From an uncultured Verrucomicrobiota bacterium (lineage in GTDB: Bacteria > Verrucomicrobiota > Verrucomicrobiia > Limisphaerales > UBA9464): a DNA stretch of 64,000 bases. The notes under the pieces were generated by a model that made no database searches, was not told the DNA's origin, and worked only from the letters and a program-made list of their open reading frames with translations. How positions within the stretch are numbered: position 1 is the first letter of the stretch; the number at the start of each line of letters is the position of its first letter. The position numbers and the translations under genes are program-made. The stretch lies in NCBI GenBank assembly GCA_903939515.1, contig CAJAHH010000076.1, positions 1 through 64,000 on the forward strand, read 5' to 3'. This document shows positions 26,283 through 60,420 of this stretch, in pieces.

Positions 26283-27179
26283 TCAGTCTTTTTTGAGGCT
26301 CACCTTCAGGCCCGCATTGTCGGGCTTGAGGATGTGGACGGCGGCCTTGGGCATTTTTCGCTGCATGGCCGCTGCGATGGCTTCGGGGTTGTCCAAGGCC
26401 AAGCACATCAAGGTGGAGCCGCTGCCGCTGAGCCAGCCACCGATGGCTCCCGCTTTCACGCCGGCCGCCAGAATGGCGTCCATGCCTGGAATGAGCGCCG
26501 CCCGATAGGGTTGGTGAATGCGGTCATCGAAGCAGCCTCGGAGGTTCTCGAGTCGGCCCGTGGCGAATGCGGCGGTGACCAGAGAGGCACGGTTGAGGAT
26601 GTGAATCGTGTCGGCCTTGGAAAAGGTCTGCGGGACCCGCTTCCGGGCCTCCGGCGTGCTGACCTCGAAGTGCGGAATCAGGGTCACCAAACGGATCCGA
26701 CTCGGGAGTGGTACCCGAATGCATCGGACCTCAGAACCGACAAATCCCGCGGCCGTGAATCCGCCAAAGACCGCCGGAGCCGCGTTGTCGGGGTGGCCTT
26801 CCAGAGCGGCCACGACTTCTAGCAATCCTTGTCGGTCCAGCGGGCTGCCTGCCAGAGCGTTGAGTCCGGCCACGCAGCCGAGTCGGGCGGTGACGCTAGA
26901 TCCGAGCCCCCGCGCGATCGGCACGTCGCCGGCCAAGTGAAGATCCACCCCAAAGCGTTGGGCGCGAGTCTTTTTGAAGAACGCCGTTGCAGCCTCCTCC
27001 AGCATGGCAAGGGCTCCGGCCCGGGCATCCTCGGCGATGGGAGAAGTAATCTCGACACGTCGGTCGTCCCGGCGGCGGACTGTGGCCCGGTTGTAGAGCG
27101 CGACGGCCAGTCCCAGAGTATCGAAGCCCGAGCCCAAATTGGCGGTCGTCCCCGGAATGCGCACGGTGGCGGATGTCAT
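26283..27179 (-). CDS. thrB: Homoserine kinase ThrB (GHMP family)
   Basis: The 298-residue enzyme phosphorylates homoserine in threonine synthesis. It has the GHMP-kinase ATP loop PIARGLGSSVTARLG (about 90-104). The N-terminal motif is VRIPGTTANLGSGFDTLGLA and the C-terminal glycine motif GGWLSGSGSTLMCLA. Substrate words such as EGHPDNAAPAVFGGF are specific for ThrB. It is convergent with the GS-like ligase, with 33 bp between the stops. No thrC or hom gene is in view. Confidence 0.95.
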   Translation of the reverse strand: MTSATVRIPGTTANLGSGFDTLGLAVALYNRATVRRRDDRRVEITSPIAEDARAGALAMLEEAATAFFKKTRAQRFGVDLHLAGDVPIARGLGSSVTARLGCVAGLNALAGSPLDRQGLLEVVAALEGHPDNAAPAVFGGFTAAGFVGSEVRCIRVPLPSRIRLVTLIPHFEVSTPEARKRVPQTFSKADTIHILNRASLVTAAFATGRLENLRGCFDDRIHQPYRAALIPGMDAILAAGVKAGAIGGWLSGSGSTLMCLALDNPEAIAAAMQRKMPKAAVHILKPDNAGLKVSLKKD

Positions 27180-27335
27180 TTGGGGGATGAAACGGTAAAA
27201 CCGGACTCGATCTCAATGGATTACAGCAGAGGGAAAATCGCCAGACGACTGGAACAGGATCGGGATGGCCCCGACGCCTTCGCTACCAGAGCGCCTGATT
27301 TTTCATTCCGAGTATTTTTTTGGAGTAGGGCTCAG

Positions 27336-27511
27336 CCGGAACGATTCCATTGGATCGGTCGTGCCGGCTGCGTCTTCTTCCGCAAGAGTATCGTGGTTCG
27401 CTCGTTACGGGCCTCAATCGCAAGCCTCAGTGCGGCCCGCGCCTCGTTCTCGCCTCGTCTTGCGAAAGAATCCGCGGCGCGGTCCCTTTCTTCCCAACCG
27501 AATCGTTCCGG
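27336..27511 (+). mobile_element. 176-bp MITE-like element, copy A
   Basis: It is bounded by perfect inverted repeats CCGGAACGATTC (27336-27347) and GAATCGTTCCGG (27500-27511). With flanking AG and CT the match extends to 14 bp. The interior aligns without a net length change to the reverse complement of 59241-59416 and is roughly three quarters identical by eye; GTTGGATCGGTCGTG-like and GTTCGCTCGTT words are shared. It has no transposase or credible gene. Its right end is 15 bp before the ATG at 27527, so it supplies the leader or promoter of that gene. Confidence 0.8.
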
Positions 27512-27526
27512 CTTAGTCTTAAGGCG

Positions 27527-28300
27527 ATGATCGGCTTGATTAACGATTTGATGCAGTTGTCCCTGGAGAACCCTCTCCTGCTGATCGGGGCTGCTTTTCA
27601 GCTTTGGATGATGGTGGATGCCTTGCGCCGCGAAGAGTGGATTTGGGCGGCGTGTATCATCTTCTTCAGCGTCTTCAGCGCGGTGTTTTATTACTTCATG
27701 GTGTATCGGGCGCAGGCATCGGCCAGCGGCGGAATGGGACTCCGAGGCTTCGAATTACCGGGTGCGGCCGATCGCCGCCGGATTAAGGAACTGGAGAGCC
27801 GCATTCATCACCTCGACAAGGCTCGCGACCATTTGGATTTAGCAGATCTTTATTTCTCGCAGGGCAAACTGACCAAGGCCGAAGCGTCTTACCGTCGGGC
27901 CTTGGAGCGGGATCCAGAGGATGACGACACCGTTAGCCATTTGGGGCAGTGCCTCTTGCGACAAGGCAAAGCCGCCGAGGCCAAGCCCCTCTTGGAGAAG
28001 ATTCTGAAGTCCGACCCGCGACACGATTTTGGCTACACACTCATGGCCTTGGCTGAGACCCAGACGGCCCTCGGCGAAGTGGATGCCGCTCTTCTGAACT
28101 GGAAGCGCGTGCTCGAAAACAACAGCTATCCGAGGGCTCGCGTCCAGTATGCCGAGTTGCTCGCCTCGCGAGGGATGGTCGATGAGGCCCAGGCTGAAAT
28201 CGATGAAGTGCTGGCCGACCAAAACCACTCCCCGGCCTTCGAGAAATCTCGCAATGCAGTGTGGATTCGCCGCGCCCGAAAACTGGAGAGCCGATTGTGA
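27527..28300 (+). CDS. Membrane-anchored TPR protein
   Basis: From ATG at 27527 the product has 257 residues. Two N-terminal hydrophobic helices (about 14-30 and 38-58; LLIGAAFQLWMMVDALR and IFFSVFSAVFYYFMVY) anchor it. After a short linker, TPR repeats run from about 95 to 245 (LADLYFSQGKLTKAEASYRR, LGQCLLRQGKAAEAKPLLEK and further). It probably scaffolds protein contacts at the inner membrane. It overlaps the next gene by GTGA. Translation further upstream would enter the repeat element, so the ATG after it is preferred. Confidence 0.85.
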   Translation: MIGLINDLMQLSLENPLLLIGAAFQLWMMVDALRREEWIWAACIIFFSVFSAVFYYFMVYRAQASASGGMGLRGFELPGAADRRRIKELESRIHHLDKARDHLDLADLYFSQGKLTKAEASYRRALERDPEDDDTVSHLGQCLLRQGKAAEAKPLLEKILKSDPRHDFGYTLMALAETQTALGEVDAALLNWKRVLENNSYPRARVQYAELLASRGMVDEAQAEIDEVLADQNHSPAFEKSRNAVWIRRARKLESRL

Positions 28301-58539: not shown

Positions 58540-58612
58540 GGGGAAGTAATTTCCTTAAAAAGTCCGGCTGATTCGGTTGCGCGGCGCGGCATCGCGTCCA
58601 CCCTTCCGCCGC

Positions 58613-59173
58613 ATGAGTATTGCCACCCGCACCGGAGATTCCGGAACCACTGGCTTGATGTACAACCGCCGGGTTTCCAAGGCCCATCCCCGGGTCGAGG
58701 CCTATGGTTCGGTCGACGAGCTAAATGCCGCCATCGGAATGGCTCGAGCGACTTCCGTCGATGCCTTCATTCGAGACAATCTTTTGGTCATCCAGAAAGA
58801 CCTGGTGATTTTGATGGGCGAATTGGCGACGGCCAAAGAAGACACGCAGCGCTACCTAGCCGACGGGTTCCAGGCGGTGACGCCGACCTTGACTGCCAAG
58901 CTCGATGTGCTGGTGGCTCAAATCGAGGCCCAGAGCATTACCTTCAAGGGATGGGCCACGCCGGGGATGACCCTCCACTCCGCGGCGCTCGACGTGGCCC
59001 GGACTACCTGCCGCCGCGCTGAACGGCGCGTCTTCGTGCTGCGCGATTCTGGGGAGGTGGAGAATCACGAGATCCTCATCTTCCTCAACCGTCTCAGCGA
59101 TTTGTTGTGGCTCATGGCCCGCTGGGTGGAGACCCACACCCCGGAATCACCGGCTACGATCCCCACGGCCTAA
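58613..59173 (+). CDS. ATP:cob(I)alamin adenosyltransferase, PduO type
   Basis: From ATG at 58613 the protein has 186 residues. RTGDSGTTGLMYNRRVSKAH with RVEAYGSVDELNAAIGMARA is the PduO signature for ATP binding. TTCRRAERRVFVL and FLNRLSDLLWLMARW complete it. It makes adenosylcobalamin from cob(I)alamin and ATP. No B12-dependent enzyme gene or B12 riboswitch is nearby. An in-frame upstream start at 58577 would add residues outside the family. Confidence 0.93.
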   Translation: MSIATRTGDSGTTGLMYNRRVSKAHPRVEAYGSVDELNAAIGMARATSVDAFIRDNLLVIQKDLVILMGELATAKEDTQRYLADGFQAVTPTLTAKLDVLVAQIEAQSITFKGWATPGMTLHSAALDVARTTCRRAERRVFVLRDSGEVENHEILIFLNRLSDLLWLMARWVETHTPESPATIPTA

Positions 59174-59240
59174 AGAGGGCGAACCCGAGGGTGGGTGGGA
59201 ATCAATGATCCGCGCCCACTCGGATTCCGCACCCGCTAAC

Positions 59241-59416
59241 CCGGAACGATTTCTGGCGGGAGAAAAGTAATGGCGTGTCGGATGCTTTCGCGAGACGGGG
59301 CGAGAACGAGGCTCGGGCCCAGCTCGGGCCCTCCTCAGGCCCACAACGAGCGAACAACCAAGCCCTTGCGCAACAAGGCGCAGCCAGCACGACCGATCCA
59401 ACAGAAATCGCTCCGG
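59241..59416 (-). mobile_element. 176-bp MITE-like element, copy B (inverted)
   Basis: It begins CCGGAACGATTTCTG and ends CAGAAATCGCTCCGG, inverted repeats matching at 14 of 15 positions. Its reverse complement aligns with 27336-27511 over the full and equal length. It lies in a 318-base gap between the adenosyltransferase gene and a convergent hydrolase gene. The flanks 59174-59240 and 59417-59491 show no gene. Confidence 0.8.
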
Positions 59417-59491
59417 CGAAGGCTGATCGAAGGATCGAGCGGTCTGCGTCTTGGACGGCCTGGTACTCTTCGTAAAGGATCCCCGAAATGC

Positions 59492-60277
59492 CTACAAGGT
59501 GACGGTGGGGCAGGGGGTGTCTTGGGAGGTATTCTCGAGTTGGACATGGTTGGCACCGGCCGCTTCTAGGGCGGCTCCGACCGTTTTGCGGGCCAGTTCT
59601 GGGGTGTTGCAGTCGCGGCTGAGGTGGCCTAGGTAAATGCGACGCAGGCCGTCATGCAGGATGGCTGTGGCCACTTCAGAGGCTGCGTGGTTGGACAAGT
59701 GCCCGTGCCGGCTGGCGATCCGCTGCTTGGTGCTCCACGGGCGTCGGGTATCGTCTTGCAACAGCTTCACGTCGTAGTTCGCCTCCAGTACCAGGAGGTT
59801 CGAAGGTTTCACTCGCTCGAGGATGAGCTTGGTGGCGTGTCCCAAGTCGGTCAGGAAGCCGATATTCCCGGCCGGGGTGGCCAAGAGGAATCCCACCGGA
59901 TCGGCCGCATCGTGGGGGACACTGAACGTGCGCACCTCGACATCGCCTAGGGTGAACGTGGCCCCGGTCTCGAAGGTGGCCGTATCGAGTCGTGCCGAGG
60001 AGAACTCCCGTCGAATGGCCTCGTGGGTGAAGCGGTTGGCATAAATCCGTGTGCCGGTTTTCTCGGCCAACGTTCCCAATCCCTTGATGTGGTCGCCGTG
60101 CTCGTGGGTGATGAGGATGGCGGTGAGACCCTCGGGAACCCGGCCAATTGAGGCCAACCGTTCCCGGATTTGCTTGGCGCTGAAGCCTGCGTCGATGAGC
60201 AATCGGGTTTCTCCGACCTCCAGATAAGCGCAATTGCCCGCAGACCCGCTGCCCAGAATCGTGAAGTGAACCGCCAC
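59492..60277 (-). CDS. Metallo-beta-lactamase-fold hydrolase (YycJ/WalJ-like)
   Basis: The 261-residue protein begins VHFTILGSGSAGNCAYLEVG, the opening of YycJ-type exonuclease-like hydrolases. The zinc motif is THEHGDHIKGLG (HxHxDH), with further ligands in SVPHDAADPVGF, FLTDLGH and YLGHLSRDCNTP. B. subtilis YycJ acts on DNA ends in repair, so a nuclease role is possible. Length is typical. Confidence 0.9.
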   Translation of the reverse strand: MAVHFTILGSGSAGNCAYLEVGETRLLIDAGFSAKQIRERLASIGRVPEGLTAILITHEHGDHIKGLGTLAEKTGTRIYANRFTHEAIRREFSSARLDTATFETGATFTLGDVEVRTFSVPHDAADPVGFLLATPAGNIGFLTDLGHATKLILERVKPSNLLVLEANYDVKLLQDDTRRPWSTKQRIASRHGHLSNHAASEVATAILHDGLRRIYLGHLSRDCNTPELARKTVGAALEAAGANHVQLENTSQDTPCPTVTL

Positions 60278-60395: not shown

Positions 60396-60420
60396 GTAGG
60401 GACCGATCTCCGAGCGGTCC
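60396..60420 (+). repeat. REP-like site: GTAG plus hairpin (second of a pair)
   Basis: GTAG at 60396 is followed by GGACCG, a 9-base loop and CGGTCC. Together with the site at 60361 it forms a tandem pair in the gap between two hydrolase genes. Confidence 0.55.

Follow-up and report, generated by a model that had tools for sequence, protein, structure and literature searches.

A MITE family inserted at CTNAG sites in an uncultured Verrucomicrobiota bacterium and its candidate IS1380-family transposase

Two 176-bp elements and their neighbours

The window analysed here—a 64,000-nucleotide stretch of contig CAJAHH010000076.1 from the genome of an uncultured Verrucomicrobiota bacterium—holds two short elements that a sequence-only reading had described as inverted copies of a MITE-like family. 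Copy 1 occupies positions 27336–27511 on the forward strand and, exactly as that reading had it, begins with CCGGAACGATTC at 27336 and ends with the reverse complement GAATCGTTCCGG at 27511, a span of precisely 176 bp. Its left terminal inverted repeat, CCGGAACGATTCC (27336–27348, forward strand), is also the end of IS1380-family elements, while the right one, CCGGAACGATTCG, lies on the reverse strand at 27499–27511. Target-site copies adjoin it on the forward strand at 27331–27335 (CTCAG) and 27512–27516 (CTTAG), the middle base of the right copy being unlike that of the left; the orthologue in the sister species G001 (locus L132) has TTA on both flanks.

To the left of copy 1 lies a divergent thrB-like gene (26283–27179, minus strand) and to the right a TPR-protein gene with an ATG at 27527, these and the following gene names having been read from the sequence. 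An open frame from a TTG at 27350 crosses the element into the TPR gene, relatives of which begin at the ATG equivalent to 27527. The claim that the element lacks coding capacity therefore stands in effect, as it has no gene of its own, although this frame does pass through it.

Copy 2, at 59241–59416, is likewise 176 bp long and lies in the opposite orientation, on the minus strand; its outermost 15 bases, CCGGAACGATTTCTG and CCGGAGCGATTTCTG, form the 14/15 inverted match reported earlier. Identity between the copies is 75% across their whole length, in agreement with the description of equal lengths and diverged interiors. The adjoining target-site copies, read on the element (minus) strand, are GTTAG at 59236–59240 (CTAAC on the forward strand) and CTTCG at 59417–59421 (CGAAG on the forward strand; TTAAG in the relative G017), and neither window copy has exact duplications (CTCAG/CTTAG for copy 1, GTTAG/CTTCG for copy 2). 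Copy 2 lies between two convergent genes, one adenosyltransferase-like (58577–59173) and the other metallo-hydrolase-like (59492–60277). No transposase gene occurs in either window copy, so the copies are not IS1380 elements themselves.

A scan of the window for CCGGAACGATTY, allowing up to one mismatch, returned six matches against 1.0 expected, a count reached by none of 100 shuffles, and four of the six were the ends of copies 1 and 2.

Family, target sites and orthologous loci

The window's genome (G000; 4.7 Mb in 160 contigs) yielded 42 BLAST matches to copy 1, about 28 of them near full length (156–192 bp). Mean pairwise identity among 28 near-full copies was 74%, and three copies at separate loci were 97–99% identical, which indicates that the family is old, yet has moved more recently too. 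Copies were found in 11 of the 18 sampled congeners; the other seven gave no match, nor did the other genera sampled from the window's taxonomic family, and G035, from another taxonomic family of the same order, contained 20 diverged matches. In public genomes, the exact end pattern occurred at no fewer than—that is, at least—117 loci, and the matches listed were mostly labelled Verrucomicrobiota. The genome search and the copies in congeners thus bear out the proposal of a MITE-like family, with both further copies and conserved ends beyond the two in the window. The defining features of a MITE that were tested are all present: terminal inverted repeats, target duplication, many dispersed, gene-less short copies and empty sites.

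As a separate observation, 35 of the 42 matches in G000 are on the minus strand of the contig concerned, even though contigs should be oriented arbitrarily; the strand distribution in G003 and G007 looks even, unlike that in G000.

When copies are aligned, conservation starts near CCGG and C-T-N-A-G flanks the element at both sides. Across 74 de-duplicated loci, flank bases x1, x2, x4 and x5 are nearly invariant, whereas x3 varies freely (on the left, 23 T, 19 C, 17 G and 15 A). The left N equals the right in 41 of these 74 loci, against 18.6 expected from shuffled left/right partners (sd 3.8, z = 6); an earlier set of 76 loci, with orthologues included, gave 45 against 20.6. Agreement beyond chance at this position indicates that the target is duplicated at the CTNAG site. 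A 5-bp CTNAG and a 3-bp TNA duplication would fit equally well, the two being inseparable because CTNAG is nearly invariant outside N: a 3-bp TNA with outermost G...C predicts the same sequence as a 5-bp CTNAG with CCGG...CCGG ends, and under the 3-bp reading the inverted ends simply grow by one base each (G...C). The 5-bp reading would suit the IS1380 family, given that in IS1247, a member of that family, the inverted repeats are 16/13 and the direct repeat is 5 bp long (PMC3281130).

The copy 2 site shows presence/absence polymorphism: it is filled in G017 and empty in G005, G014 and G018, where the flanks are joined at exactly the spacing predicted if the element and one duplication are taken out; at these empty sites the three target bases differ, with GTT or GAT in place of TAA. 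Copy 1 is present as a full element in G001, internally deleted in G002, reduced by deletion to about its last 33 bp in G005, G017 and G007, and represented in G014 by its first ~50 bp followed by an unrelated tandem repeat. A full copy in the sister species together with remnants elsewhere indicates that copy 1 was inserted before the species split and has decayed since. Empty sites in relatives, a comparison suggested in the sequence-only reading, were accordingly found at 59241, but 27336 proved to be an older, shared insertion.

Two other features of such loci are recorded here. A second repeat family of the genus, GGGACCGATCTCCGAGCGGTCC, occurs once in the window (60399–60420) and elsewhere in tandem, with a spacing of 48 or about 130–163 bp (L072:2663–2780, L058:1212–1559, L049:1755–2042 and L097:42–245); in G014 it adjoins the truncated MITE at the copy 1 site. 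At L161 (G014:C230) and L011:1746–1848 (G000:C133), a MITE directly follows a radical-SAM-like gene, the stop codon TAG of which lies within the CTNAG target; at this site G000 and three relatives have lost the 5′ half of the MITE.

Size variants of about 28, 44, 78, 94, 123, 145, 163, 176, 190–196 and 205 bp have their ends alone in common, the shortest being about 28 bp (L060, L251) and 44 bp (L021). As the variants are alike only there, the ends alone appear to be required, as expected with a transposase acting in trans. Tandem copies a few bases apart were seen in G000:C133, G001:C92, G003:C98, G007:C9/C27 and G014:C182, which would be explained by existing copies recreating CTNAG at both sides. 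MITE dimers lie at L011:3668–3997 (G000:C133), at L121:2495–2786 (G003:C98) and in L125/L126 (G007:C9, C27). Relatives have single copies at two of the dimer loci, and the second copies start with GCCGGAACGATGCGATGGG or nearly so, after a junction of CA or CGA. Comparison of these sequences suggests that dimers arose when an element inserted next to an existing copy, or through gene conversion between copies already present.

Candidate partner elements and competing explanations

The search for a partner considered pairs of perfect ends within the public loci listed. Among the matches listed, four end-to-end intervals measured ~1.5 kb (L229, 1504 bp; L270, 1489 bp; L275, 1489 bp; L285, 1522 bp), each with one long gene of 464–477 codons. 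The four encoded proteins, mutually 49–77% identical, scored 231–253 bits against the NCBIfam model transpos_IS1380 (cut-off 180), and that of L229 also matched Pfam DDE_Tnp_1_4 (2e-38). When 196 genomes of the order were searched at the protein level, 22 proved to contain relatives, and two more complete elements with MITE-type ends emerged: L333 (1487 bp) and L336 (1509 bp), the latter from the window's taxonomic family but another genus. All six complete elements (1487–1522 bp) come from other Verrucomicrobiota genera and carry the terminal 13 bases CCGGAACGATTCA at both ends, matched 13/13 in five and with one mismatch per end in L336. All six are flanked by CTNAG on both sides, with identical 5-mers in five, and their similarity to the MITEs is confined to the terminal 17–20 bp. 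Among L229, L285, L333 and L336, ends and CTNAG target are kept even at 46–50% protein identity; end sequence and target choice thus appear strikingly conserved across the IS1380 elements of the order.

A transposase with matching ends, which the sequence-only reading had proposed to look for, was therefore found in other Verrucomicrobiota but not in the window's own genome. No intact IS1380 transposase above the family cut-off was present in 19 genomes of the genus, represented by draft assemblies of a kind that often lose multi-copy insertion sequences, and the pairing of MITE and transposase consequently lies between genomes. Within the genus, G003:C58 retains a 64-residue remnant of an IS1380 transposase, 70% identical to L275. 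Short-read assemblies frequently lack insertion sequences, and the final codons of the IS1380 element are found at contig ends in other genomes (L198, L206, L246, L250, L259, L274), so absence from the genus is no proof of loss.

Three other candidates were set aside. G016:C150 holds a degraded IS1380-like gene that is only 26% identical and is without MITE-type ends; ends 1.1 kb apart at C111:95795–96912 of G000 lie in ordinary genes and represent a chance pairing rather than an autonomous element; and partial copies 1.5 kb apart around an Xer-type recombinase gene in G001:C145 are two separate decayed copies.

We consider it highly probable that the 176-bp elements are type I MITEs moved in trans by an IS1380 transposase that has since been lost or was left unassembled. 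Each MITE is a non-autonomous DNA transposon made up of a terminal inverted repeat, CCGGAACGATTCARTTG, at each end and a non-coding, partly palindromic interior; a DDE transposase of the IS1380 family, supplied by a distinct insertion sequence of 1.5 kb that shares these ends, would recognise those ends, mobilise either its own element or the MITE and join it to CTNAG, with duplication of the target. That an IS1380 transposase, rather than another enzyme of the same specificity, moved the window copies is what we infer from the common ends and target, and the source element would then have been lost from the window's genome or missed in its assembly. The earlier MITE interpretation is supported, and mobilisation in trans, which it had put forward as a possibility, now has a named candidate transposase.

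The MITEs could instead have been moved by a different transposase with coincidentally the same ends and target, for example an IS5-type enzyme: such transposases occur in the genus (a 964-bp element in G001:C33), and the 3-bp TNA duplication typical of some IS5 subgroups would suit the MITE flanks. However, none of the fetched PF13586, PF01609 and PF13340 transposase loci of the genus has MITE ends, the G001 element ends instead in AGAGCCCGTCCGAAAAC, and the MITE ends recur exactly on five of the six IS1380 elements, so we regard this explanation as quite unlikely. We think it hardly credible that the copies are REP- or BIME-type palindromes moved by a RAYT (Y1) transposase: they are short, palindromic, intergenic and sometimes tandem, as such repeats are, but have long terminal inverted repeats, a duplicated target base and partners that carry a DDE transposase between matching ends. 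Movement by a RAYT would not be expected to duplicate the target, and the duplication contradicts this origin.

The interior fold bears on another possibility, that the repeat is a structured RNA or ERIC-like regulatory repeat kept for its function, with transposition incidental. Both strands of copy 1 form an end-to-end fold stronger than that of shuffles, as RNA (z −4.4 and −6.2) and as DNA (z −3.4), and copy 2 does so less strongly (z −2.9). Over 35 copies, 83% of cells retain their pairing, against 31–46% when the pairing is slid, and changes on both sides affect 24 cells against 7.9 in shuffled data, slid versions giving up to 22. Against this, RNAalifold gives a covariation term close to zero, with no net covariation, and Rfam covariance models at gathering score found no match in seven copy-bearing loci; moreover, a MITE is expected to be a long imperfect palindrome anyway, orthologous copies decay through internal or end deletions (G002, G005, G007, G017) and presence differs among close relatives. 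These results show a long palindrome to be conserved, with weak evidence at best of selection on an RNA, and we judge a functional repeat of this kind very unlikely. An elaboration of the IS1380 reading strikes us as unlikely: the MITE would have outlived its IS1380 source genus-wide and still be moved by a transposase arriving transiently through horizontal transfer, with the fold-back interior selected for mobilisation or for its effect on neighbouring transcripts.

Relation to described systems

As mobile DNA the family is well supported but of an ordinary kind, and it would work like a type I MITE. Its closest described counterpart found is MITEPye1 of Paracoccus yeei, which is likewise short and gene-less, with inverted repeats matching an insertion sequence, flanking direct repeats and a long stem-loop, and is likewise proposed to be mobilised in trans by the transposase of its IS family (PMC11578231); MITEPye1, however, is matched to the IS1182 family and has 1–3 chromosomal copies, whereas the window family pairs with IS1380 and numbers tens of copies per genome. 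Like IS1247 (PMC3281130), the partners belong to the IS1380 family, with IS1380/DDE_Tnp_1_4 transposases and a compatible 5-bp duplication, but the window copies measure about one-tenth of the length of these partners, lack a transposase and have only the terminal 17–20 bp in common with them. Anabaena sp. 90 contains 147 complete or partial MITEs of 77–541 bp, mostly intergenic, which also have inverted ends and predicted secondary structure and were assigned to type II because no insertion sequence of that genome has matching ends (PMC3542288); unlike these, the window family has a matching insertion sequence, though in other genomes. Neither an IS1380-linked MITE nor a MITE described in Verrucomicrobia was found in the literature searched, a scope that left aside most subscription papers and ISfinder.

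For a dispersed repeat of uncultured Verrucomicrobiota, a partner family (IS1380) can thereby be named and a target (CTNAG) defined. The IS1380 family includes ISEcp1-like elements, which move adjacent genes, so that the lack of a MITE linked to it in the papers searched is of some interest. Insertions of the family provide presence/absence markers between species, and the family may account for contig breaks in these Verrucomicrobiota draft genomes. A further, different insertion sequence, about 98% identical across G005:C261, G014:C164 and G000:C47 (L175, L177, L179), has ends GGCCATATGCGTTAACC in G005 and lies at a contig end in G000; it has probably been active recently.
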